This document shows positions 4,699 through 62,841 of a DNA stretch of 64,000 nucleotides, in pieces. How positions within the stretch are numbered: the first letter of the stretch is position 1; every line of letters starts with the position of its first letter. Origin of the DNA: Candidatus Moraniibacteriota bacterium (lineage in GTDB: Bacteria > Patescibacteriota > Minisyncoccia > Moranbacterales > UBA1568); the NCBI GenBank assembly GCA_018499985.2, contig JAHBAT020000001.1:1-64000 (forward strand). The letters are read 5' to 3'. Both the position numbers and the translations under genes were made by a program. The notes beneath the pieces were generated by a model. The model had not been told where the DNA came from and did no database searches. It worked only from the letters and a program-made list of their open reading frames with translations.

Positions 4699-5526
4699 TT
4701 ACTTGCTATACTTATTGATTGCTTCTTGAAAACCAGCGAGTGGCAAGGCTCCTACCACCACTTCTCCTGTTACCGTTCCATCTTCAGCAAGAGTTCCAAT
4801 AACAAAACTTGGAGTACCCGTGATACCAGCCTTGGTACCATCTGCAATATCTTTAGCTATCTCTTCCTTAGTAGATGCTTCTTCAGAACAAGCAAGTGCC
4901 TTAGTAGTATCAACACCTGCTGCCTTAAGAAGTTCCATCATTTTTCCTTGAGGAAGACCTTTTCCATTTGCTTGAGTAGCTCCGTACACAGCCTTTGTAA
5001 AGCTAAAATAGGCAGCATCTCCCTTCTGATCACGAACACACTCTGCTACAGCAGCTTCTTCGGTAGCCTTGGGATCATGGAATGATAGAGGAAAATCACG
5101 AGCTACAATTACTGCCTTACCTGTTTCAACATACTCTTTTACGAGCTGGTCATAAGTTTCTTGGTGAAAACGTTTGCAAAAAGGACACTCAAGGTCACTA
5201 AACTCAATTATAGCTACCTTAGCCTTTTTCTTATCACCCATGACAGGATCATCATCCAGAGAAACAGTCACTGGGCCACTTTCAGCCTCTTTTGCCATTT
5301 TATCATCTGCCTGCTGCGCTGGCTTTGCATTGGCACCTCCCTGAATCTTATCGCTCTTCATTGGTATCCAGTAACTACTGGCAATCAAAATAGCTCCTAC
5401 AAGTAGTGCTCCTGCAATCAAAAGCGCATCTGAACTCAAGGCATCCTTCTTAAGCCACTGACACTTTTTCTTTGTTACAACTACCGACTCTTCTGTTTTT
5501 TCACTTTCATTGAGAGTTTCTTCCAT
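4699..5526 (-). CDS. Membrane-anchored DsbA/thioredoxin-fold oxidoreductase
   Basis: N-terminal TM, CPFC active site (DLECPFCKRFHQET), TPSFVIG cis-Pro motif. Confidence 0.88.
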   Translation of the reverse strand: MEETLNESEKTEESVVVTKKKCQWLKKDALSSDALLIAGALLVGAILIASSYWIPMKSDKIQGGANAKPAQQADDKMAKEAESGPVTVSLDDDPVMGDKKKAKVAIIEFSDLECPFCKRFHQETYDQLVKEYVETGKAVIVARDFPLSFHDPKATEEAAVAECVRDQKGDAAYFSFTKAVYGATQANGKGLPQGKMMELLKAAGVDTTKALACSEEASTKEEIAKDIADGTKAGITGTPSFVIGTLAEDGTVTGEVVVGALPLAGFQEAINKYSK

Positions 5527-5575
5527 AAAAATACTTCATTAAAACTTTATAGCTCTATTATATCACAATCCCCTC

Positions 5576-6298
5576 TTAAGCGATTTTTTCAGCCTTATAC
5601 CGAGCATGAAAACTCTCCACGTACTCTATAGCCCATCGGAGAGGTGCGAGAAAGTTTTTCCATGCCAAAAGCTTAAGGAAGATATAGCTTCCAATGAGAA
5701 TTCCCGACTGAATAAGAGCAAACCAGAGCTGACTATCTGTATTTACTTTAATGAAAAAGCGGTGCAAAATAGCGAACACAAACATAGCATAAACCGTTCT
5801 ATGAAGCCATTTCCACTTCTTACCTCCCAGATACTTCTGCGCTAAATTATTAGAAGTAAACAAAAGAGGTAGGGTAAGAAAAAAGGCTACCATACCAAAG
5901 AAAAATCCATTCTGCCACTGACTGAGATTTGGCAGTATATATCCTTGAAACCAAAGAGGGTCAATCATATAACCCACTCCATGTACTATTGCAAGATACC
6001 CCATAAGAATACCAAGTTCCCGTCTTATAGCCATAAGAAGAGTAAGAAACCGAACACGCACAATACGTGAAGCTGGGCTCAAAAAAAGAATCACTATGAG
6101 AAGGTTGCCAGAGAGCTCACCAAACTCTTTTCTTAGGTCTGGAAAGAAAAAACCAAAAAGACTCAGGTGAGCAATTACTAAAATACCTTGCTTAATCTGC
6201 TGTATATTGCGAGCAAAGGCATTCGTAACTCCATCATGTATACGAAATACCAGGAAGAGAAGTGTTTTCATAAAAAGCTTATTGGTATTTATAATCAA
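5576..6298 (-). CDS. Ferric reductase-like transmembrane domain protein
   Basis: Multiple TM helices, conserved His in helices, WKWLHRTVYAMFVFAILHRF (MsrQ/FRE-like). Confidence 0.7.
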   Translation of the reverse strand: MIINTNKLFMKTLLFLVFRIHDGVTNAFARNIQQIKQGILVIAHLSLFGFFFPDLRKEFGELSGNLLIVILFLSPASRIVRVRFLTLLMAIRRELGILMGYLAIVHGVGYMIDPLWFQGYILPNLSQWQNGFFFGMVAFFLTLPLLFTSNNLAQKYLGGKKWKWLHRTVYAMFVFAILHRFFIKVNTDSQLWFALIQSGILIGSYIFLKLLAWKNFLAPLRWAIEYVESFHARYKAEKIA

Positions 6299-6384
6299 AG
6301 ACTCCCTTGTAAGGCAGTTTTCACTTCTTGATTATAGCATGAGAATAGTCAGAAATTATGGTATGATATGAGTAATAGAAAAAT

Positions 6385-7728
6385 ATGGAAACTTTGCAAA
6401 ATACCGAACCAATCATCCGGGTAGATAAACTACGTATTGTCTACAACCAGGGAAAATCAAATGAAATGCGTGCCCTCGAAGAAACGAGTGTGGAAATCTA
6501 TCCGCATGAGTACGTTATTATCTTTGGTCCTTCTGGTTGCGGAAAATCCACGCTCCTTTACTCTATCTCAGGTCTTCAGTCAGCTACCTACGGATCTGTT
6601 TATGTCGGAGGGAAAGAACTTGGGAAAATGACCCAGGCCGAGCAGGTGTATTTTCACCAATCCAGCATTGGGATGGTTTTTCAGGCTTTTTATCTTATCT
6701 CTTCACTTACCATCCTCGACAATGTAGTTCTTCCAAAAGTTTTCCGCGGAGAAGACCCGAAAACCCGCAAGGAGGTAGGCCAAACTCTTCTTCGTCGCTT
6801 TGGTATCGCAGCCCAAGGAAATAAATTTCCAAATGAACTTTCTGGTGGACAGAAACAGCGTGTAGCTATTGCTCGCTCACTCGTAAATGATCCAGAAATC
6901 ATTCTTGCCGACGAACCAGTAGGTAACCTAGATAGTGAAAGTGCCGAAAACGTGCTTGCTATTCTCAAAGATCTCAATGAAGTCGACAAAAAAACTATCA
7001 TCATGGTGACTCACAACCCAGAACACCTTGCCTATGCTGACCGTGTTATTTTTATGAAGGATGGTCGTGTTGTCAAAGAAGAAATTAATCGCGATAAACG
7101 CCCTTCCACAGCAGCTGCTTCAAAAACTACAAAGCCTGAAGAAAAATTTGCAGACAAAAACTCTCCAGAAGCCCTTGAACTTCAGATGCTCATGGAGTCA
7201 TTCAAAAACCTTCTTCCAAAGCAGGTAGATATTCTTCTTATTCCTTTCAAGGCCAAGCAACTCCTAGCTCATATCATCTCTGAAATGAATGACGAGCAAA
7301 TCTCTATGGCAGAAGCCTTTCTCAAAGAACGCCTCTTCAATAATATTGATGCCAAAAAACTTGCTCAAAGTCTTGATACTAGCCTTGAAGAGGGTGGTGG
7401 TGGCTGGAATAGTCTTCGAGCTCAATCCTTCACAAAACGAGCTGAGGCTATTATTGAGCAAGCTCGTATCACTAAAGAAAGTCCTCAGAAAGGCCTTCGT
7501 ACCCTTGCTGAATACCTCGTAGAAAACTTTCATATCAAGTTTACTCAAGAATCATGGCCTCGTTTTGTAGAACTGCTCAAACTTCGTATTGAAAATAAAA
7601 TGGGTCAACTCGAACTTCTCCGCAACCTTGATGCACCGGTCAAAAAAGGTGGCGTAGGACTAAATCGTATTACTGCCGAAAAAATAGTCCGAGAAATCGA
7701 AATAATTATGCTTCTAAAATACAGCTAG
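6385..7728 (+). CDS. ABC transporter ATP-binding protein (MacB/LolD-like) with ~200-aa C-terminal extension
   Basis: Walker [10 protein letters not shown], signature [14 protein letters not shown], Walker [13 protein letters not shown]. Confidence 0.92.
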
Positions 7729-54983: not shown

Positions 54984-57146
54984 TTAACGGTCACTTTCTA
55001 TATAAATACGATTAACACCAATCTGAGCAGATGTCACAGGGGTATTGGCGCCATTACTCATAAGAGCATGTGCAGCCATCATAGTGGTATTAACTGGAAG
55101 ATCAGTTGTAGTGGAGGTATTGATAATCTCTGCTCCTGTGTTTAAGTTTACCAAACGATAGTAGACAGTCGTATCATTAGGTTTAGCAAAAATATAGGCA
55201 TCATACCCTTGATTAGCAGCAAGTGTTGGCTGTCCAGCGATAGCATCTTTTGTGGCTACTCCAGCATTATCATTATGCATGAACGTAATTGCTGTATCTC
55301 CAGCATCGATACCAAAACCAAGGATATTGGTAAGGTTGGATGGGTTACCTGTCACAACAGCAGTTGTACCTGTACTAAAGCCCACAAACAAACGATCACC
55401 AGCAGTCCATGCCGTGGTACCAAAACGACAGAAGAAAAAGAATCCTCCTTGACCAGCCACTGATCCGCGGAAAAACATGTTTTCACTACTACGCTGACCT
55501 ACTTGCTGATTAGTAGTAGTGACTACGCTTGCCCACTGACCACGCTTCATGGCGGTGTAAAAGTTTGTGGTAGTAGGAAGGGCGGTAGTATAGGTACCTG
55601 CTCCCGCTCCAGCCGTACCCTGCCAGACACCAGCCGTAGCCGTAGTAGGGGTCCACATAACTGTATTATTACCCCACAAGGCCGCCTGAAAAGGGGTATC
55701 TACACCTGATGGCCCTATCCATTTTGGCACAATACGTCCAGCAATATTTTTACTGTAAATATGAACATTATTTGCTGCAGGAGCACTTGGCTCATTGGTA
55801 ATAGCATTCATAGTAATCCCTGTGTCTGTACCCGGAAGAGTCAGGTCATTTGTAGTCTTATCCCAGACAAAGTCGGCATCTCCACCAAAAGAACCTGCGT
55901 CATTGAATTGAATCTGTGTAGTGGAACCGCCAGGAGCTCCTGAGCCACGACAGTCTGTCCAGGCGGTATCCTCAAAACAACGGAATTTGTTTGTGCTGTT
56001 GTTGTAGTACATCTTTCCTTCGGTACCAGCTGGATCTCCGGCATCACTTTTGACATCAAGCGCAAAAAGATCCGGCGTCGTAGAGCCAGCTCCTCCGGCA
56101 CCCACTTGGACTGTACCAGTCGTAGCAGCGCCAGCTACCGCGAGAGTGATACCACCCGTACCTGACTGAAAGGTCGAAGTGGAAGTGGTATTGGTAGAGC
56201 CAAAAACAACCGTCTTTGCAGCAGCTCCCGTACCAATACTGATAGTTTCTGCTGATCCATCATCACCAATATTAATTGCTCCGGTAGTACCAGAGTTGAT
56301 ACCAATAGCTACTCCAGCAGCTGAAGTCAGAGTAGAGAGCGTGGTCGTACCCGAAATGGTCACCGCGTCATTGAGACTAATAATACCCGTACCGTTAGCT
56401 ACCATGGTAAGGTCTTCGTTGGCAGCAGTGGTGATATCTGTAGTGGCTCCCGAAAAAGTCACTCCGGTAGAGCCGATAGTTTTGTTGGTAAGGGTTTCTG
56501 TCCCAGCAAGAGTTGCCAGGGTACCAGTGGTCGGAAGGGTAAGGGTTGAATTACCAGAGGTAGTAAAGGCGACATCATTGGCACCAGAAGTAGAGAAGGC
56601 TCCACCAAAAGAAATGGTCTTACCCGCTGGCACAGTGAGGGTTCCTGTGGTATTCGTCACTGTCAGTCCGCCTACCTTCTCAGCGTTCATAGCGTAGGGT
56701 GTTGCCGTAAAGCGTACGCGTGGGGTCATCTCTCCATCACTGTTGAAATTAATACCGAGGTAAATATTGTCCGTATTGAAATCTACCGATCCTGGAAGGC
56801 TTGTCGTGTCACCAAGATTCGTCTGGAAAATACCATCCGTTACTGTGAGAGACTTCGTCTCTGTCCAGACGGCACTACCGCCACTTGCTACCGTGTAAAT
56901 ACTAAAGGTAAATGAATACGATCCATTGGCGACATTGGTACCGACTGTTTTGGCTACCACTTTACCCTGGAAATTGATCTGACGATTGATGCCCGTAGCT
57001 GCTTCGGCGTTGAGTGAACTTGTACCAAAAATACCAAGAGCAAAAAAGACAAAAACAAACACCAAAGAGAGGGTCCGAGAACCGCTCTTCATAAATGGCT
57101 TATCTAAAATGTTTTTTTGTTTGTTTTTGAGGCGCATAGCCTGCAA
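54984..57146 (-). CDS. Large secreted low-complexity surface protein
   Basis: Signal peptide, Thr/Gly/Ala beta-repeats (NKTIGSTGVTFSGATT, AVTISGTTTLSTLTSAAGVAIG). Confidence 0.85.
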   Translation of the reverse strand: MQAMRLKNKQKNILDKPFMKSGSRTLSLVFVFVFFALGIFGTSSLNAEAATGINRQINFQGKVVAKTVGTNVANGSYSFTFSIYTVASGGSAVWTETKSLTVTDGIFQTNLGDTTSLPGSVDFNTDNIYLGINFNSDGEMTPRVRFTATPYAMNAEKVGGLTVTNTTGTLTVPAGKTISFGGAFSTSGANDVAFTTSGNSTLTLPTTGTLATLAGTETLTNKTIGSTGVTFSGATTDITTAANEDLTMVANGTGIISLNDAVTISGTTTLSTLTSAAGVAIGINSGTTGAINIGDDGSAETISIGTGAAAKTVVFGSTNTTSTSTFQSGTGGITLAVAGAATTGTVQVGAGGAGSTTPDLFALDVKSDAGDPAGTEGKMYYNNSTNKFRCFEDTAWTDCRGSGAPGGSTTQIQFNDAGSFGGDADFVWDKTTNDLTLPGTDTGITMNAITNEPSAPAANNVHIYSKNIAGRIVPKWIGPSGVDTPFQAALWGNNTVMWTPTTATAGVWQGTAGAGAGTYTTALPTTTNFYTAMKRGQWASVVTTTNQQVGQRSSENMFFRGSVAGQGGFFFFCRFGTTAWTAGDRLFVGFSTGTTAVVTGNPSNLTNILGFGIDAGDTAITFMHNDNAGVATKDAIAGQPTLAANQGYDAYIFAKPNDTTVYYRLVNLNTGAEIINTSTTTDLPVNTTMMAAHALMSNGANTPVTSAQIGVNRIYIESDR

Positions 57147-57247: not shown

Positions 57248-57907
57248 TTATTGCAAGCCTTCTTGCTTCTTTTCTTCTTGTTTTTGGCGCTCTTCTACGC
57301 TAAGAATTTTAAAGGTTTTTTGCATCTGCAAAATTTGTCCTTCTGCCTCATCTTTTTCTGCTGTCGCGGTGTATGAAATACTCACCAAAAATGCATCTTG
57401 AAAAAAATAGACTGTCTTTTCGTATGGATCAGAAGCTTTGCTGAATAGGTTTATTTCTTGCTCTTCATTTTTTATTTTTTTCTGTAGATATTCCCTATCT
57501 TGCTTGCGAAGCTCAAATCCAGGAGAAGACTCAAAAGTGTTTTCTGGCCTTTCTTCTACCGTGATAGCCACTTTTTCGTTGTTACTAGCTGTGCCAACAA
57601 AAAATACCGTTTCTTTGACAGGGCCGCTTTCGGGAAGAGACTTACTTCTTATCCCAAAACTTCTTGGTACATCTACTTTGAAATACGTACCTGTATACAC
57701 CTCTGTACCACTTTTTACTTCTTCTACTTTTTCTTTGGCAACTCCAGTACCAACTGTACCCACTGCCTCACCCTGCATCCAAAACCATACCCACAAACCT
57801 CCACCTATTAAGGCCAGCAACAGTACACTATAGACAATACCTTTTACTTTCATAGAGCCTTTATTTTTGTTTTTTACCAAAAGTTTTTTTGAGATTTTTC
57901 CATGCAA
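57248..57907 (-). CDS. Hypothetical membrane-anchored protein
   Basis: N-terminal TM and alpha/beta soluble domain; end of the DUF916-like gene run. Confidence 0.6.
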   Translation of the reverse strand: MHGKISKKLLVKNKNKGSMKVKGIVYSVLLLALIGGGLWVWFWMQGEAVGTVGTGVAKEKVEEVKSGTEVYTGTYFKVDVPRSFGIRSKSLPESGPVKETVFFVGTASNNEKVAITVEERPENTFESSPGFELRKQDREYLQKKIKNEEQEINLFSKASDPYEKTVYFFQDAFLVSISYTATAEKDEAEGQILQMQKTFKILSVEERQKQEEKKQEGLQ

Positions 57908-58838
57908 AGCGCCTACTTCTAACTACAAATACCGTCCCTACCAAACCAGTTATCACACCTATGCTCCACAAGGGTATATGCCAGTATTTTTCGATCTTTT
58001 TTTCATAGCTTTCTTTACCGTCATAGCGATACTCAAGCAACACCGTGTACCGTCCCGGCAACCAAGCCAGTCCTAATGATGAAAAATCTTCCTGAAATAC
58101 ACGCGTGGCCTTAGGAAGAACAAGAGCAGACTCTTGGTTGAGAATAGCTCGCTCTACCGTCCTTCCGAGTGGATCAGTGACGCGAATAGAGCCTCTTGGT
58201 ACTACATGTGTATTGCCATCATTAGTGAAACGAATATCTGTTGTCTTGGGTAGAAAAAAGGTATTTTTTGGATAAGAAAAGTTATTAAGTGAGAGAGAAA
58301 AAACTTCTCCTCCTACCTTACGCATATAAATAAGAGATGAAAATACCTGACGCACAGCGATACGAGGATCCCCCTGACCCTCACTATTCGGAGTATTGTT
58401 TTCAAAAAGAAGTGCTCCATAGTGCCCTCCTGGAGCAAGTTTTCCGCTATTGGTAATCACTACCGTAAGCTTTGTTTTTGAAGCTGGTGGCACAAGAATT
58501 TCATTGACCGGAATAGAAAGCCAGCTCGCTACATCATACTCTCTTGGGTCACCCGTGCCCAAAAATGCTACCCCGCCACTTTCATCAAGCGTACCAAAAT
58601 CCACTGCTTTAAGAAGGAAACTCTGAGCAATATCTGCTGTATTTTCAAGCTCAATCGTCACTGGTATCTCCACCTGATCCTCAAGAATAACTTCTTGTAG
58701 GGCTGGCTCTACAGTAATTTTTTGCAAATTTTTTTGTTCAAAAACCTTTTCCTCCAAAGCAAAAGAGGGCTTTCCACAAAAAAGCCCCCAGCAAACAATG
58801 AGTCCAACAATAAAGCTATTCCTCCAAAACACCTTCAT
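57861..58838 (-). CDS. DUF916/WxLIP-like surface protein with C-terminal TM
   Basis: Signal peptide, Ig-like N domain (VTIELENTADIAQSFLL), GHYGALLFENN, C-terminal TM. Confidence 0.65.
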   Translation of the reverse strand: MKVFWRNSFIVGLIVCWGLFCGKPSFALEEKVFEQKNLQKITVEPALQEVILEDQVEIPVTIELENTADIAQSFLLKAVDFGTLDESGGVAFLGTGDPREYDVASWLSIPVNEILVPPASKTKLTVVITNSGKLAPGGHYGALLFENNTPNSEGQGDPRIAVRQVFSSLIYMRKVGGEVFSLSLNNFSYPKNTFFLPKTTDIRFTNDGNTHVVPRGSIRVTDPLGRTVERAILNQESALVLPKATRVFQEDFSSLGLAWLPGRYTVLLEYRYDGKESYEKKIEKYWHIPLWSIGVITGLVGTVFVVRSRRFAWKNLKKTFGKKQK

Positions 58839-59872
58839 TATTTTTTGCCTTTCATTTTACCAAGCACACCACCAAGTATTGAGCGCAAACCAAGGCCGAC
58901 AAAAAGAAGGAGAATCAATCCACCGCCAATGATGCGCCATGGAATAACCCAGAAACTGACTTCGCCCTCAAGTGGCACATCATGAGTACCGTCGTCATAT
59001 ATCATAAGTAGCTTGGCTGTATAGTGACCAAAACGGAGCTTGGAAGCGTCCTTGAAGTCCCACTGAAGCTCCATAACGGTATTACCCTCGGCGTCTTTAA
59101 CTTCCTTATCATCTACGATCTTTGGAGTATACTTTGGGAAACCATCTACCCACACTGCTTCAAAGGCACGCTTAGAAGAAGGGAGGATATTGCCCTTTTC
59201 TTTATTGACCTCTATGAGAGCGATATCTTTTTCATCACCTTTATCAATGTAGATATTTCCACGAGGTGCGGCATGTACATTTCCTTGGTTTTTGAGAGTA
59301 ACCGTAAAAGTAGTTGGCAAAAATTCATATACACTCTTATCAAGAGAAAACTTTTCGAGTGTAATTTCTTTTTTTGCCCCTGGTACATCTACATCAAGAA
59401 GAGCCAGGATGGCTGTACCTCCATTGAGAGCCGTACGACGCTCTTCTGGACTCAGGTTTTCATTGGCGCGAGAAAAGACAAAGGCATAGTAATAGCCAAA
59501 AGAAGCTTCTTTTGGCGGGGTAATCGTAGCTTGAATAGTTTTCCACTCACCTGGAGCTACAGTAAACACATCCTCACTAAATTTTACCCATTTCAAGAAC
59601 TCATCGGTTGGCTCCGCCTCCATAAGGGCAGGCTTCCCACTTTCCTCATAGGCCTCAAACTTCATCAAGCTGACCTTGAGAGTTTCCTCTCCAGTACCAG
59701 TATTGCGAAGCTTGATATCAGTGGTTACAGGAACACCTGGAGTCGTCTTCATCAAAATAGGAAGGGGTGAGGTCAAAAGAGAAAGTCCATTTGACTGAGC
59801 GCGTGAAACTACTGGTACAAAAAGTCCTAATACAATAAACAAGCTAAGTAGCTTTGTGGAAATACGTCCCAT
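58838..59872 (-). CDS. DUF916/WxLIP-like surface protein with C-terminal TM
   Basis: TTDIKLRNTGTGEETLKVSLMKFEA...TVAPGEWKTIQATITPPKEASFGYYYAFVFSRA, C-terminal TM and basic tail. Confidence 0.7.
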   Translation of the reverse strand: MGRISTKLLSLFIVLGLFVPVVSRAQSNGLSLLTSPLPILMKTTPGVPVTTDIKLRNTGTGEETLKVSLMKFEAYEESGKPALMEAEPTDEFLKWVKFSEDVFTVAPGEWKTIQATITPPKEASFGYYYAFVFSRANENLSPEERRTALNGGTAILALLDVDVPGAKKEITLEKFSLDKSVYEFLPTTFTVTLKNQGNVHAAPRGNIYIDKGDEKDIALIEVNKEKGNILPSSKRAFEAVWVDGFPKYTPKIVDDKEVKDAEGNTVMELQWDFKDASKLRFGHYTAKLLMIYDDGTHDVPLEGEVSFWVIPWRIIGGGLILLLFVGLGLRSILGGVLGKMKGKK

Positions 59873-59929
59873 AGCAAGAAGTTATTTTTTACTCCCTCAA
59901 GTATAGCATAAAATCATCTCTAGGTAACA

Positions 59930-59957
59930 AAAAACCCTCCATCCTAGGAGGGTTTTA
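59930..59957 (-). terminator. Putative terminator
   Basis: aaaaaaccctccatcctaggagggtttta. Confidence 0.75.
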
Positions 59958-59977
59958 TTTAGTTTATTTGTAAAACA

Positions 59978-61036
59978 CTAGAAGCGGCCAGCAGCTACAA
60001 CAGTAAGCGTATCTGTATAGTCGTTAGCAGCGGCCTGTACAGCAGTGATTTTGGCACGCTCCGTAAGAGTAAGCACATCACCAGCAGTAGTCCCATCGGC
60101 GGCCCCGATTGGCTGATAAGTAGTAGAGAGAGTACCTCCAGAAGTAGTGTTTGTACCGTTGTATTCAGCTCCATAGTTAGAGGCCTGAGAAACCGTACCG
60201 GTACCGGTACCACTATCTGTTGTGATATCTACGTCAAGGACATATCCGGTAGTAGAAGCAAGATCTGTCGGGGTGTTGTCTACTGTACCAGCGGTAGCAA
60301 TAGAAGCCCCTGTACCGGCTGAGTTAAGACCTGCATTGGCACTCTTTACCCATGCTACCCATCCAGAAGCGGCATTCGTAGAGATAGTCATGGTGCGACC
60401 ACTCGTAGAGGTGGTGGTGGTAGAGAGATTACTTGTAAATGTATCTGTGTTACCGCTCAAGCTAAAGCTAAATGTCGGAGGCACGGTAGCGGTCACTACA
60501 ATCTGATCATTGGAAACAATGGAGAGGGCATAACTAGCTGAATCAATGGTCGTCGGACCAGTAGCCTGCGTAGTAATCACACCCACCTTATCATTACCTG
60601 CTGTAGAAGTAGTAAGAGTAGAAGTACCTGAGAAGTTAAAACAATACAACGTAGCTACCGTCAAGTCAGTACTTGGAAAGGTAACATCCTGACCAGAAAC
60701 AGAGGACGCTGTACCAATACCAGGCCATGCTGTAGCGCCAGACGGAAGGTTGGTAGTAGTTACTGTCCAGTTACTGGCTGTAGAGTTTACGGTAAAACCA
60801 GTAGGAAAAGTCACTTTGACAGTAGTTTCTGTACCAGCAGTTGTTGGTTGTGCACAGACAGTACCTCCTGAAGTAGTAGAGGCAGCTAGACGATCAAGTC
60901 TCACATAAGCTTCTTGAAGATTAGCGGCTTCTGAAGTGCTAATAAAAAGAAACGGTAGGGCCAAAAGAAAAAGAAACGAGAGTAGATGAAGAGCGCTCAG
61001 GCGACTCTGGATTCTTTGTTTTGTCTGTAGTGACAT
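59978..61036 (-). CDS. Secreted WxL-like surface protein
   Basis: Signal peptide, Thr/Ser-rich beta protein, C-terminus ANDYTDTLTVVAAGRF. Confidence 0.65.
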   Translation of the reverse strand: MSLQTKQRIQSRLSALHLLSFLFLLALPFLFISTSEAANLQEAYVRLDRLAASTTSGGTVCAQPTTAGTETTVKVTFPTGFTVNSTASNWTVTTTNLPSGATAWPGIGTASSVSGQDVTFPSTDLTVATLYCFNFSGTSTLTTSTAGNDKVGVITTQATGPTTIDSASYALSIVSNDQIVVTATVPPTFSFSLSGNTDTFTSNLSTTTTSTSGRTMTISTNAASGWVAWVKSANAGLNSAGTGASIATAGTVDNTPTDLASTTGYVLDVDITTDSGTGTGTVSQASNYGAEYNGTNTTSGGTLSTTYQPIGAADGTTAGDVLTLTERAKITAVQAAANDYTDTLTVVAAGRF

Positions 61037-61137
61037 AAATCAAATAAGGTTATTTATTTTTATACAAAACGCTTTTTACAAAAGCTTTTTTATTTACCCC
61101 AAGTATACACCAATGCAAGAATTCTGGTCAATGCAAA

Positions 61138-62211
61138 CTAGAAGCTTGCTGAAGTAATAACGGTAAGTACTTCTTGATAGTCACTGGCTGCTGGTGTTAC
61201 CGAGGTAGCCTTGGCCTTTAATTGAAAGGATCCTCTGCCACTTGCTACTGGAGTAGAAGCAGTAAAGATTTCACGAACTGTAGTATCACTTACAGCTACA
61301 TTGTCTGAGGTAAGGTTATAGGCTGGCACAAGAGTAAAAGGTCCACCAGCTGATTGTGTAGCGCTTACTCCCTGAACACCAAAACCCTCCTGCAAAGCTG
61401 CTAGGTTACCTGATACGGCACTGATGGTATAGCTTGCTCGGGTACTCTGAAGACCATTATTTGAAGCTTTAATATAAACTCTTCCTCCATTTTCAGCATT
61501 GGTATCAAAGTCTACCCATACTTTTTGTGGGCTATTGGCCACCACTCCAGGGGAAAGATTGCCTAAGTTTGTTGCAAATGGAGCAGCTGTCTCTGTGTCG
61601 GTAGCAGAAACATCGATATCAAAGCTGAGCTTTGGTCCAACGGTAGACTGTGTAGCGACTGGACCATAGTCAGTTTCTGTCTTACTTCCCTGCATAGCCT
61701 TAACTTTGACCTTATACGTCGTATTGGCCGTAAGACCGATAATGAGAGTGCCACTCGCTCCGCCCCAAGCGGTGTATGTCTGATAGTCCTCGATACCCAA
61801 AGTAGTGCCCACGGTATTATCACTTTGTACATACCGTGTTGTGACAAAGTTATCGCTACTAATAGCAATAGCATATACTGCGTCGCTTGGATTCTCTCCC
61901 GCTACTAGGGTCACCAGAAGCTTATTGTAGTAATTAGCAGGATTGGTAAAGCTTGGTGCGCTTGGCACATTGGCCTGATTCGTAAAGACCATACCCGAAC
62001 CCAAATCATAGGTAGTACTTGTAAGTTTACCTCCGCTCTGCTCTCCGGTAATAGCTGTCATGCCATAATTGGTAGATGTACCGCTACCACCACCACTACC
62101 AAAGCCAAAATCCTTAAGCTCATAGGTAGTGCTCGCAGGCAAAGCCAAAAAAATAAAGAGTGGGAAAATTCTTTTCAATAAACTCTTTCTTGTATTTCCG
62201 AAAAAATACAT
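61138..62211 (-). CDS. Secreted WxL-like surface protein
   Basis: Signal peptide, fibronectin-like middle region, C-terminus ASDYQEVLTVITSASF. Confidence 0.65.
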   Translation of the reverse strand: MYFFGNTRKSLLKRIFPLFIFLALPASTTYELKDFGFGSGGGSGTSTNYGMTAITGEQSGGKLTSTTYDLGSGMVFTNQANVPSAPSFTNPANYYNKLLVTLVAGENPSDAVYAIAISSDNFVTTRYVQSDNTVGTTLGIEDYQTYTAWGGASGTLIIGLTANTTYKVKVKAMQGSKTETDYGPVATQSTVGPKLSFDIDVSATDTETAAPFATNLGNLSPGVVANSPQKVWVDFDTNAENGGRVYIKASNNGLQSTRASYTISAVSGNLAALQEGFGVQGVSATQSAGGPFTLVPAYNLTSDNVAVSDTTVREIFTASTPVASGRGSFQLKAKATSVTPAASDYQEVLTVITSASF

Positions 62212-62214
62212 ACC

Positions 62215-62841
62215 TTATTCCTTACCAAAAATGATAGTCACGGTAGCTGTTTGTGTTTCCGGATCGCTTGTAAGAGCCTCTTTGTACGCAATGCTTGGGT
62301 AAGTTGCCTTAAGGGCAGTTACTATTGCTTGACCAGCTTCTTGATCGGCTTTTTTGGTATATACCGTAGTGCCTGTAAAATCTCCCTTTGTATTACCAAT
62401 CGTTACCTTACTAAAACCCTTACCCTTTAGTGTTTCTGCTGTCGCAGAAGCCACACCCTTAGCTCCGCCTCCATTCATCACTATGACATCGAGTGCTTGG
62501 GCTTTTTTGAGGGCATCACTTGTGCCCTCACTCTTTTCTTCTTTTTGATCTGTTTCTACCTGCGGCATAGCTACTGACTCCTCTTCAGTTGAAGTCATTT
62601 CTGTCTTTGGTAAAGCACTAATCGATGGTGATTGACTTTCTTTTGACTGCTGTTTCCAAAGGCTGTACGTACCAAAGCCAGCCCCGGCTAATCCAAGTAT
62701 TACTACCACAATAAGTCCACCGAGCAAAAAAGCTCCAAATACATGCTCTTTATGAGACTTTCTTCTTACCACTGGCTCTTCAGAAACTGCTATCACTTCT
62801 TCCTCTACAACTTCTTCTTTTTTTGTTTTTTTTGAGAACAT
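62215..62841 (-). CDS. Membrane-anchored LytR_C domain protein
   Basis: TM near N-terminus; DVIVMNGGGAKGVASATAETLKGKGFSKVTIGNTKGDFTGTTVY. Confidence 0.75.
   Translation of the reverse strand: MFSKKTKKEEVVEEEVIAVSEEPVVRRKSHKEHVFGAFLLGGLIVVVILGLAGAGFGTYSLWKQQSKESQSPSISALPKTEMTSTEEESVAMPQVETDQKEEKSEGTSDALKKAQALDVIVMNGGGAKGVASATAETLKGKGFSKVTIGNTKGDFTGTTVYTKKADQEAGQAIVTALKATYPSIAYKEALTSDPETQTATVTIIFGKE

Follow-up and report, generated by a model that had tools for sequence, protein, structure and literature searches.

Introduction

In the csc clusters of Lactobacillales, WxLIP proteins (PF06030; DUF916-DUF3324) are encoded beside secreted WxL proteins (PF13731), and a disordered hairpin in the first of the two immunoglobulin (Ig)-like domains of WxLIP is predicted by AlphaFold2 to insert into WxL (PMC10599100, from which the WxLIP family description used below is also taken). 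A soluble chaperone serves the pilus subunits of chaperone-usher systems, of which the archaic type (chaperone CsuC, SCPU subunit CsuA/B) and the class 5 pair CfaA/CfaB concern us here. TapA/TasA of Bacillus subtilis is a further, analogous case, in which strand complementation takes place without an usher outside the Gram-positive membrane (PMC10151520, PMC9674648). In this study, we describe a locus in 64,000 nucleotides of Candidatus Moraniibacteriota bacterium (Patescibacteriota; assembly GCA_018499985.2, contig JAHBAT020000001.1, positions 1 to 64,000; hereafter the window), in which four genes, X2, X1, W1 and W2 in order of transcription, encode two secreted proteins (X) and two membrane-anchored Ig-like proteins (W). 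W probably completes an incomplete C-terminal domain of X by beta-strand donation, holding X at the cell surface.

To our knowledge, little has been learned about the means by which Patescibacteria fix proteins to the cell surface. Many of these bacteria are presumed to live as epibionts on other cells. A first-pass annotation of the window had taken the four genes for a Trp-less analogue of WxL/WxLIP outside Firmicutes; the four open reading frames (ORFs) are present as it described, all on the minus strand (Table 1).

W1 and W2 as relatives of WxLIP

W1 and W2 are paralogues (hhalign probability 99.6), and by profile comparison both are homologous to Gram-positive WxLIP. The combined W profile aligned with Firmicutes WxLIP over 262 columns in both domains (probability 99.0, E 2.5e-18) and a deeper W alignment did so with a probability of 98.7, while unrelated families from the same neighbourhood, used as a control, stayed below 3; the E-values of these and all other single hhalign comparisons are without database correction. 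Annotated loci on plasmids of Enterococcus, Lactococcus, Pediococcus, Companilactobacillus, Melissococcus and Niallia supplied the reference sets for WxLIP and WxL. Consensus queries for WxLIP and for chaperones served as bait only, and the sequences compared were fetched records.

Scanned with Pfam and NCBIfam, the window proteins yielded only fn3_5 in W1 and LytR_C in the gene upstream, with nothing significant in X, and PF06030 had no match over its cut-off in the window W proteins or in the rest of their genome. Taken alone, this failure would reject WxLIP, but it is overturned by the profile-profile comparison, the fold search and a survey of the phylum. PF06030 matched 10 of 35 members of the W alignment at E<=0.1 (best 3e-5), and it passed its cut-off in 43 of 287 evenly drawn Patescibacteria genomes, several of the genes also being found by the W alignment (e.g. 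G318:C18, G158:C5). The hidden Markov model search advised in the first-pass annotation was negative for the window itself, both for PF06030 and for PF13731, and positive for PF06030 elsewhere in the phylum. What that annotation had called DUF916-like is a matter of homology beyond mere likeness, given the profile match in both domains, the solved WxLIP fold (see below) and the PF06030 passes.

Both W proteins have the WxLIP architecture (signal peptide, PGBD-HBD order, C-terminal transmembrane (TM) helix and basic tail, 320-380 amino acids (aa)). The TM-plus-basic tails were correctly recognized earlier, the last 15 residues carrying net charges of +5 and +6. For WxLIP it was proposed that the TM helix enters a host membrane (PMC10599100); the basic tail of W would fit better with a normal membrane anchor. 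The clusters differ from those of WxLIP in holding two WxLIP paralogues instead of the usual one. The motif NQIDKxxxYFDLK, found near the N-terminus of WxLIP, was not found in the W1 or W2 family alignments, in which the aligned segment is shorter.

Two AlphaFold2 models were made, one of W1 (35 sequences) and one of the X1 C-terminal domain (46 sequences). The W1 model (predicted local distance difference test score, pLDDT, 87.5) comprises two Ig-like beta-sandwich domains and a C-terminal helix, and has the PapD-like two-Ig fold of the chaperones. Its Foldseek matches in the PDB included the archaic chaperone CsuC (5d6h, E 3.8e-10), WxLIP bound to a long WxL (9i25_C, E 1.3e-9), WxLIP (9i1y, E 4.4e-9) and CfaA (E 6.3e-9), although false sharing is a risk with fold matches of Ig-like domains. 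The sequence profile points the same way: against archaic chaperone-usher chaperones from environmental plasmids, W gave an hhalign probability of 97 (E 2.5e-11) and WxLIP one of 60 (E 8e-5). An hmmsearch of PDB sequences with both the W and the X profile yielded no relatives. Loop 136-152, which links two strands in the first W1 domain, is poorly ordered in the model; it aligns with the WxLIP hairpin, and its site is that of the F1-G1 hairpin of PapD-like chaperones.

C-terminal domain of X1 and X2

X1 and X2 have a hydrophobic N-terminal signal stretch with no TM segment after it, and their C-terminal domains, of about 175 aa, are homologous (hhalign probability 97.6). We compared the ends of 46 X C-terminal domains from the window and related loci, numbering positions back from the last residue. 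D-14, Y-13 and F/Y-1 are invariant (46/46), T-8 is present in 45/46, L/I/V-9 in 41/46 and V/I-7 in 40/46. The shared end DY-x3-LTV-x5-F, pointed out in the first-pass annotation, is thus real and far beyond chance.

The same end can be read beside WxL and beside SCPU. WxL and SCPU consensus queries gave no matches on plasmids, and the reference sets of both were the neighbours of WxLIP and chaperone matches. Firmicutes WxL proteins, counted from their final Pro, have Tyr at -13 (Phe in 2/14), Thr at -10, Leu at -9 and Trp at -7 in 14/14, so that the YxxTLT strand lies equally far from the end as in X. In more distant Patescibacteria, proteins encoded beside W end as X does, often on GTYTxTLTYxATPxF. 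The distal Trp, however, is absent from X, which has at -7 either V (35/46) or I (5/46), with Y in 11/23 more distant relatives. WxL proteins also end on Pro plus a variable tail, whereas X ends on Phe or Tyr. A free aromatic last residue is found in X (46/46) and in SCPU pilins (21/21) but in none of 14 WxL proteins, against a background of 100/507 mechanical ORFs of the loci, X included. SCPU pilins have Tyr at -11, and archaic subunits share with X a Y-x-D-T-[LV] strand.

The predicted fold of the X1 C-terminal domain is likewise closest to pilus subunits. Its Foldseek matches in the PDB include CfaB (4y2l, probability 1.00), CsuA/B (7zl4, 0.96, and 6fqa_D, 0.94) and, also among the best, the tip subunit CsuE, with the pilin domain of PapG lower (0.77), all at weak E-values (see below). 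Two separate models therefore retrieved the two partner classes of one system, chaperones with W1 and pilins with X1. The broad X profile matched SCPU with E 7.5e-5 (hhalign probability 62, reversed control 0.66) and failed to match Firmicutes WxL (E 0.04). At the family level the probability for SCPU was 62 or 50, with confident columns only at the C-terminal strand. The X alignment is rich in Thr and Ser and these scores may be inflated, but the reversed-sequence controls argue against this richness as their sole cause.

WxL proteins recognized by Pfam do occur in other Patescibacteria: PF13731 passed its cut-off in 5/287 genomes, which also carry PF06030 genes, several of them within a few kilobases. 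The system of the window, Trp-less at the distal position, is not the sole case outside Firmicutes. These Patescibacteria WxL proteins matched Firmicutes WxL with an hhalign probability of 98 and the broad X profile with 35 (E 4e-4, reversed control 0.17), a suggestive link between X and WxL. WxLIP-like proteins with LysM-like C-terminal extensions, a different route to the wall, were noticed in three loci (L144, L147 and L148); in L144 and L148 a WxL gene directly adjoins the gene for such a protein.

These observations bear on a strict WxL/WxLIP complex, in which the C-terminal domain of X would bind peptidoglycan, W would clamp X to the wall and only the tryptophans would have been lost. 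The homology of W to WxLIP, the identical -13 register with its YTxTLT core and the bridge formed by the Patescibacteria WxL proteins and their WxLIP neighbours speak for it, but PF13731 found no match in X, the distal Trp is gone and the free aromatic C-terminus resembles SCPU and not WxL. We consider this complex quite improbable. Of the WxL-like partner of the first-pass annotation, the C-terminal register stands exactly; a significant WxL profile match does not, and the nearest fold is that of chaperone-usher pilins, so the WxL half of that reading is so far only analogous. Homology of X to WxL or to SCPU remains suggestive. The register, the fold matches and the profile scores against SCPU and Patescibacteria WxL place X near both WxL and the pilins, without proof of descent from either.

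Conservation and pairing

Searching named genomes with the W1 alignment gave 26 loci, mostly from Candidatus Moraniibacteriota and otherwise from Saccharibacteria, Shapirobacteria, Parcubacteria and Levyibacteriota. The order X2-X1-W1-W2 is kept in most of those on a long enough contig, apart from a few changes in copy number and with L111 and L116 as exceptions. The identical block order is found in Moraniibacteriota, Saccharibacteria, Shapirobacteria and Levyibacteriota, that is, in several lineages of phylum level.

The survey across Patescibacteria that the first-pass annotation had called for showed the gene pairing to be conserved. X is present in 38/287 genomes and W in 123/287, and W is missing from none of the 38 genomes with X (hypergeometric P 2e-16, although genomes that are related do not count as independent); a W gene lies <=3 kilobases from X in at least 32 of the 38. 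Two loci hold a lone pair, X1 with W1 in L116 and X2 with W2 in L027. In 15 loci the partial distance correlations were 0.34 for W1-X1 (P 0.02) and 0.49 for W2-X2 (P 0.001), against 0.04 and -0.34 for the crossed pairs, in a small sample in which one of two copies was picked in four loci. The lone pairs and these correlations suggest, at the level of gene content and sequence distance, that the partners are X1-W1 and X2-W2.

The outer-membrane usher (PF00577) was found in none of the 287 genomes, the E. coli control being positive, and no protein in them passed the cut-off for SCPU (PF05229). By definition, therefore, the locus does not encode a chaperone-usher pilus. It also departs from one in that W is anchored in the membrane by its C-terminus and X has an extra N-terminal domain. 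Filaments without an usher might nevertheless be built, if X polymerised by donor-strand exchange and W acted as a tethered assembly chaperone feeding the filament, in the way that TapA initiates TasA fibres in Bacillus. The pilin-like fold of X, the chaperone-like fold of W, the presence of two X1 copies in each of four loci (L100, L105, L115 and L119) and the Gram-positive precedent (PMC10151520) would suit such a pilus. However, the pilin-like domain of X is C-terminal, behind another domain, so that the usual short N-terminal donor extension is not seen, and W and X genes are about equal in number per block, a ratio easier to reconcile with one-to-one display than with a polymer. The TapA analogy has its own limits, as it is the N-terminus that TapA donates, and TapA itself has a complete Ig fold. 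A usher-less pilus of this kind is unlikely on balance.

In L105 the match of the second X1 copy (4736-5905) covers residues 12-331; beyond these the copy departs from the conserved frame, perhaps through a frameshift.

Proposed mechanism

The reading that we prefer, strand donation from an anchored W to X, would proceed as follows. X would be exported by Sec with its C-terminal domain, a pilin-like or WxL-like beta-sandwich, short of one strand. After export each W would bind its own partner, W1 with X1 and W2 with X2. The W1 strand past the flexible hairpin would fill the groove beside the C-terminal strand of X (...DYTDTLTVVAAGRF-COOH) and complete the fold. The C-terminal helix of W would stay in the membrane; because W remains bound there, X would stay at the surface, its N-terminal domain facing outward.

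Several observations weigh against this reading. Ig-like sandwiches are widespread, and the unrelated Ig tandems CEP192 and RbmA also score against the W1 model. Most of the top matches of the X1 C-terminal domain are pilins, but the best E-value is 8.6e-3 and none is below 0.001, and the solved WxL chain 9i25_A is not among its 50 best Foldseek matches. Direct hhalign comparison of X with Firmicutes WxL was not significant (probability <2), both for the close family and for the broad W-adjacent set. In L111 a solitary W1 gene (5944-6972) without X directly follows ABC-transporter genes that look MacB-like, and as some W genes stand alone in this way, W may have other jobs.

Part of this would fit generic Ig-like surface proteins that share an operon and form no strand-complemented complex. 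Yet co-occurrence in 38/38 genomes, conserved adjacency and an invariant C-terminal strand in X are hard to square with such an assortment, as are chaperone and pilin matches from two separate models and the paired presence in the two single-pair loci. We regard it as highly improbable.

If strand donation holds, the findings suggest that these tiny cells keep surface proteins in place by supplying a strand that these lack, and do so without an outer-membrane pore such as known pili use. With WxLIP-like genes in 123 of the 287 sampled genomes, a system for display or adhesion that is common may have escaped annotation. The data also offer a connection, open to testing, between the WxL clusters of Gram-positive bacteria and chaperone-usher pili. 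It is conceivable, although we hold it only tentatively, that a usher-less chaperone-pilin system with WxLIP-type strand donation is widespread in Patescibacteria, and that Firmicutes WxL/WxLIP and Gram-negative chaperone-usher systems are branches of one ancient pairing principle. Term searches of a limited literature collection returned only broad reviews and surveys for WxL with donor-strand complementation or chaperone-usher, and nothing for chaperone-usher with Patescibacteria.

Gene layout and neighbouring genes

The features of the locus are listed in Table 1. The N-terminal beta-rich domain of X1 has two invariant Cys residues. The N-terminal part of X2 shows a repeated SxNYxLxxxxGE pattern, which is also seen in X2 orthologues.

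Table 1. Coordinates of the X and W genes, their domains and adjacent genes in the window
Feature	Positions	Strand	Description
LytR_C membrane protein	62215..62841	-	PF13399 E 1e-9; directly upstream of X2
X2	61138..62211	-	357 aa, secreted; signal peptide, then a fn3/CBM-like middle region and the pilin/WxL-like domain at the C-terminus, end ASDYQEVLTVITSASF
X2 C-terminal pilin/WxL-like domain	61141..61674	-	About 178 aa; homologous to X1 C-terminal domain by hhalign
X1	59978..61036	-	352 aa, secreted; beta-rich N-terminal domain after the signal peptide, pilin/WxL-like domain at the C-terminus, end ANDYTDTLTVVAAGRF
X1 C-terminal domain	59981..60532	-	AlphaFold2 model pLDDT 93.6; top PDB matches are chaperone-usher pilus subunits
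W1	58838..59872	-	WxLIP/PapD-like, 344 aa; two Ig-like domains between a signal peptide and a TM helix with basic tail
W1 first Ig-like domain (PGBD/DUF916-like)	59384..59785	-	Pfam fn3_5 E 1.3e-7
W1 hairpin loop, residues 136-152	59417..59467	-	Low confidence in monomer model; pLDDT < 50 at 144-149
W1 strand, residues 153-161 (TAILALLDV)	59390..59416	-	Proposed donor strand, from W1 model, WxLIP alignment and the mechanism of PMC10599100
W1 second Ig-like domain (HBD/DUF3324-like)	58940..59365	-	hhalign and AlphaFold2 model
W1 C-terminal TM helix and basic end	58847..58939	-	AlphaFold2 model, residue charge
W2	57861..58838	-	W1 paralogue, 325 aa; architecture as W1
Single-TM secreted protein	57248..57853	-	ORF 57248-57907, better start ATG at 57853; after W2 in most Moraniibacteriota loci
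Large secreted protein	54984..57146	-	720 aa; family kept directly downstream of the X2-X1-W1-W2 block

The start of W2 overlaps the stop of W1 by one base (TAATG). Genomes from the same family largely retain the gene order LytR_C, X2, X1, W1, W2, single-TM protein, large secreted protein. The large secreted family (54984-57146 in the window; L100-L125) has a conserved N-terminus (INRQINFQGKVV...GSYSFTFSIYTVASGGSAVWTETKSLTVTDGIFQTNLG) and follows W2 in nearly all loci. In five other loci (L077, L081, L086, L094 and L095) W genes lie directly beside genes for proteins with dockerin-like repeats (VNLADFSILxYYWG...DINxD...DFSIMMFYW), a hint of a further type of partner.

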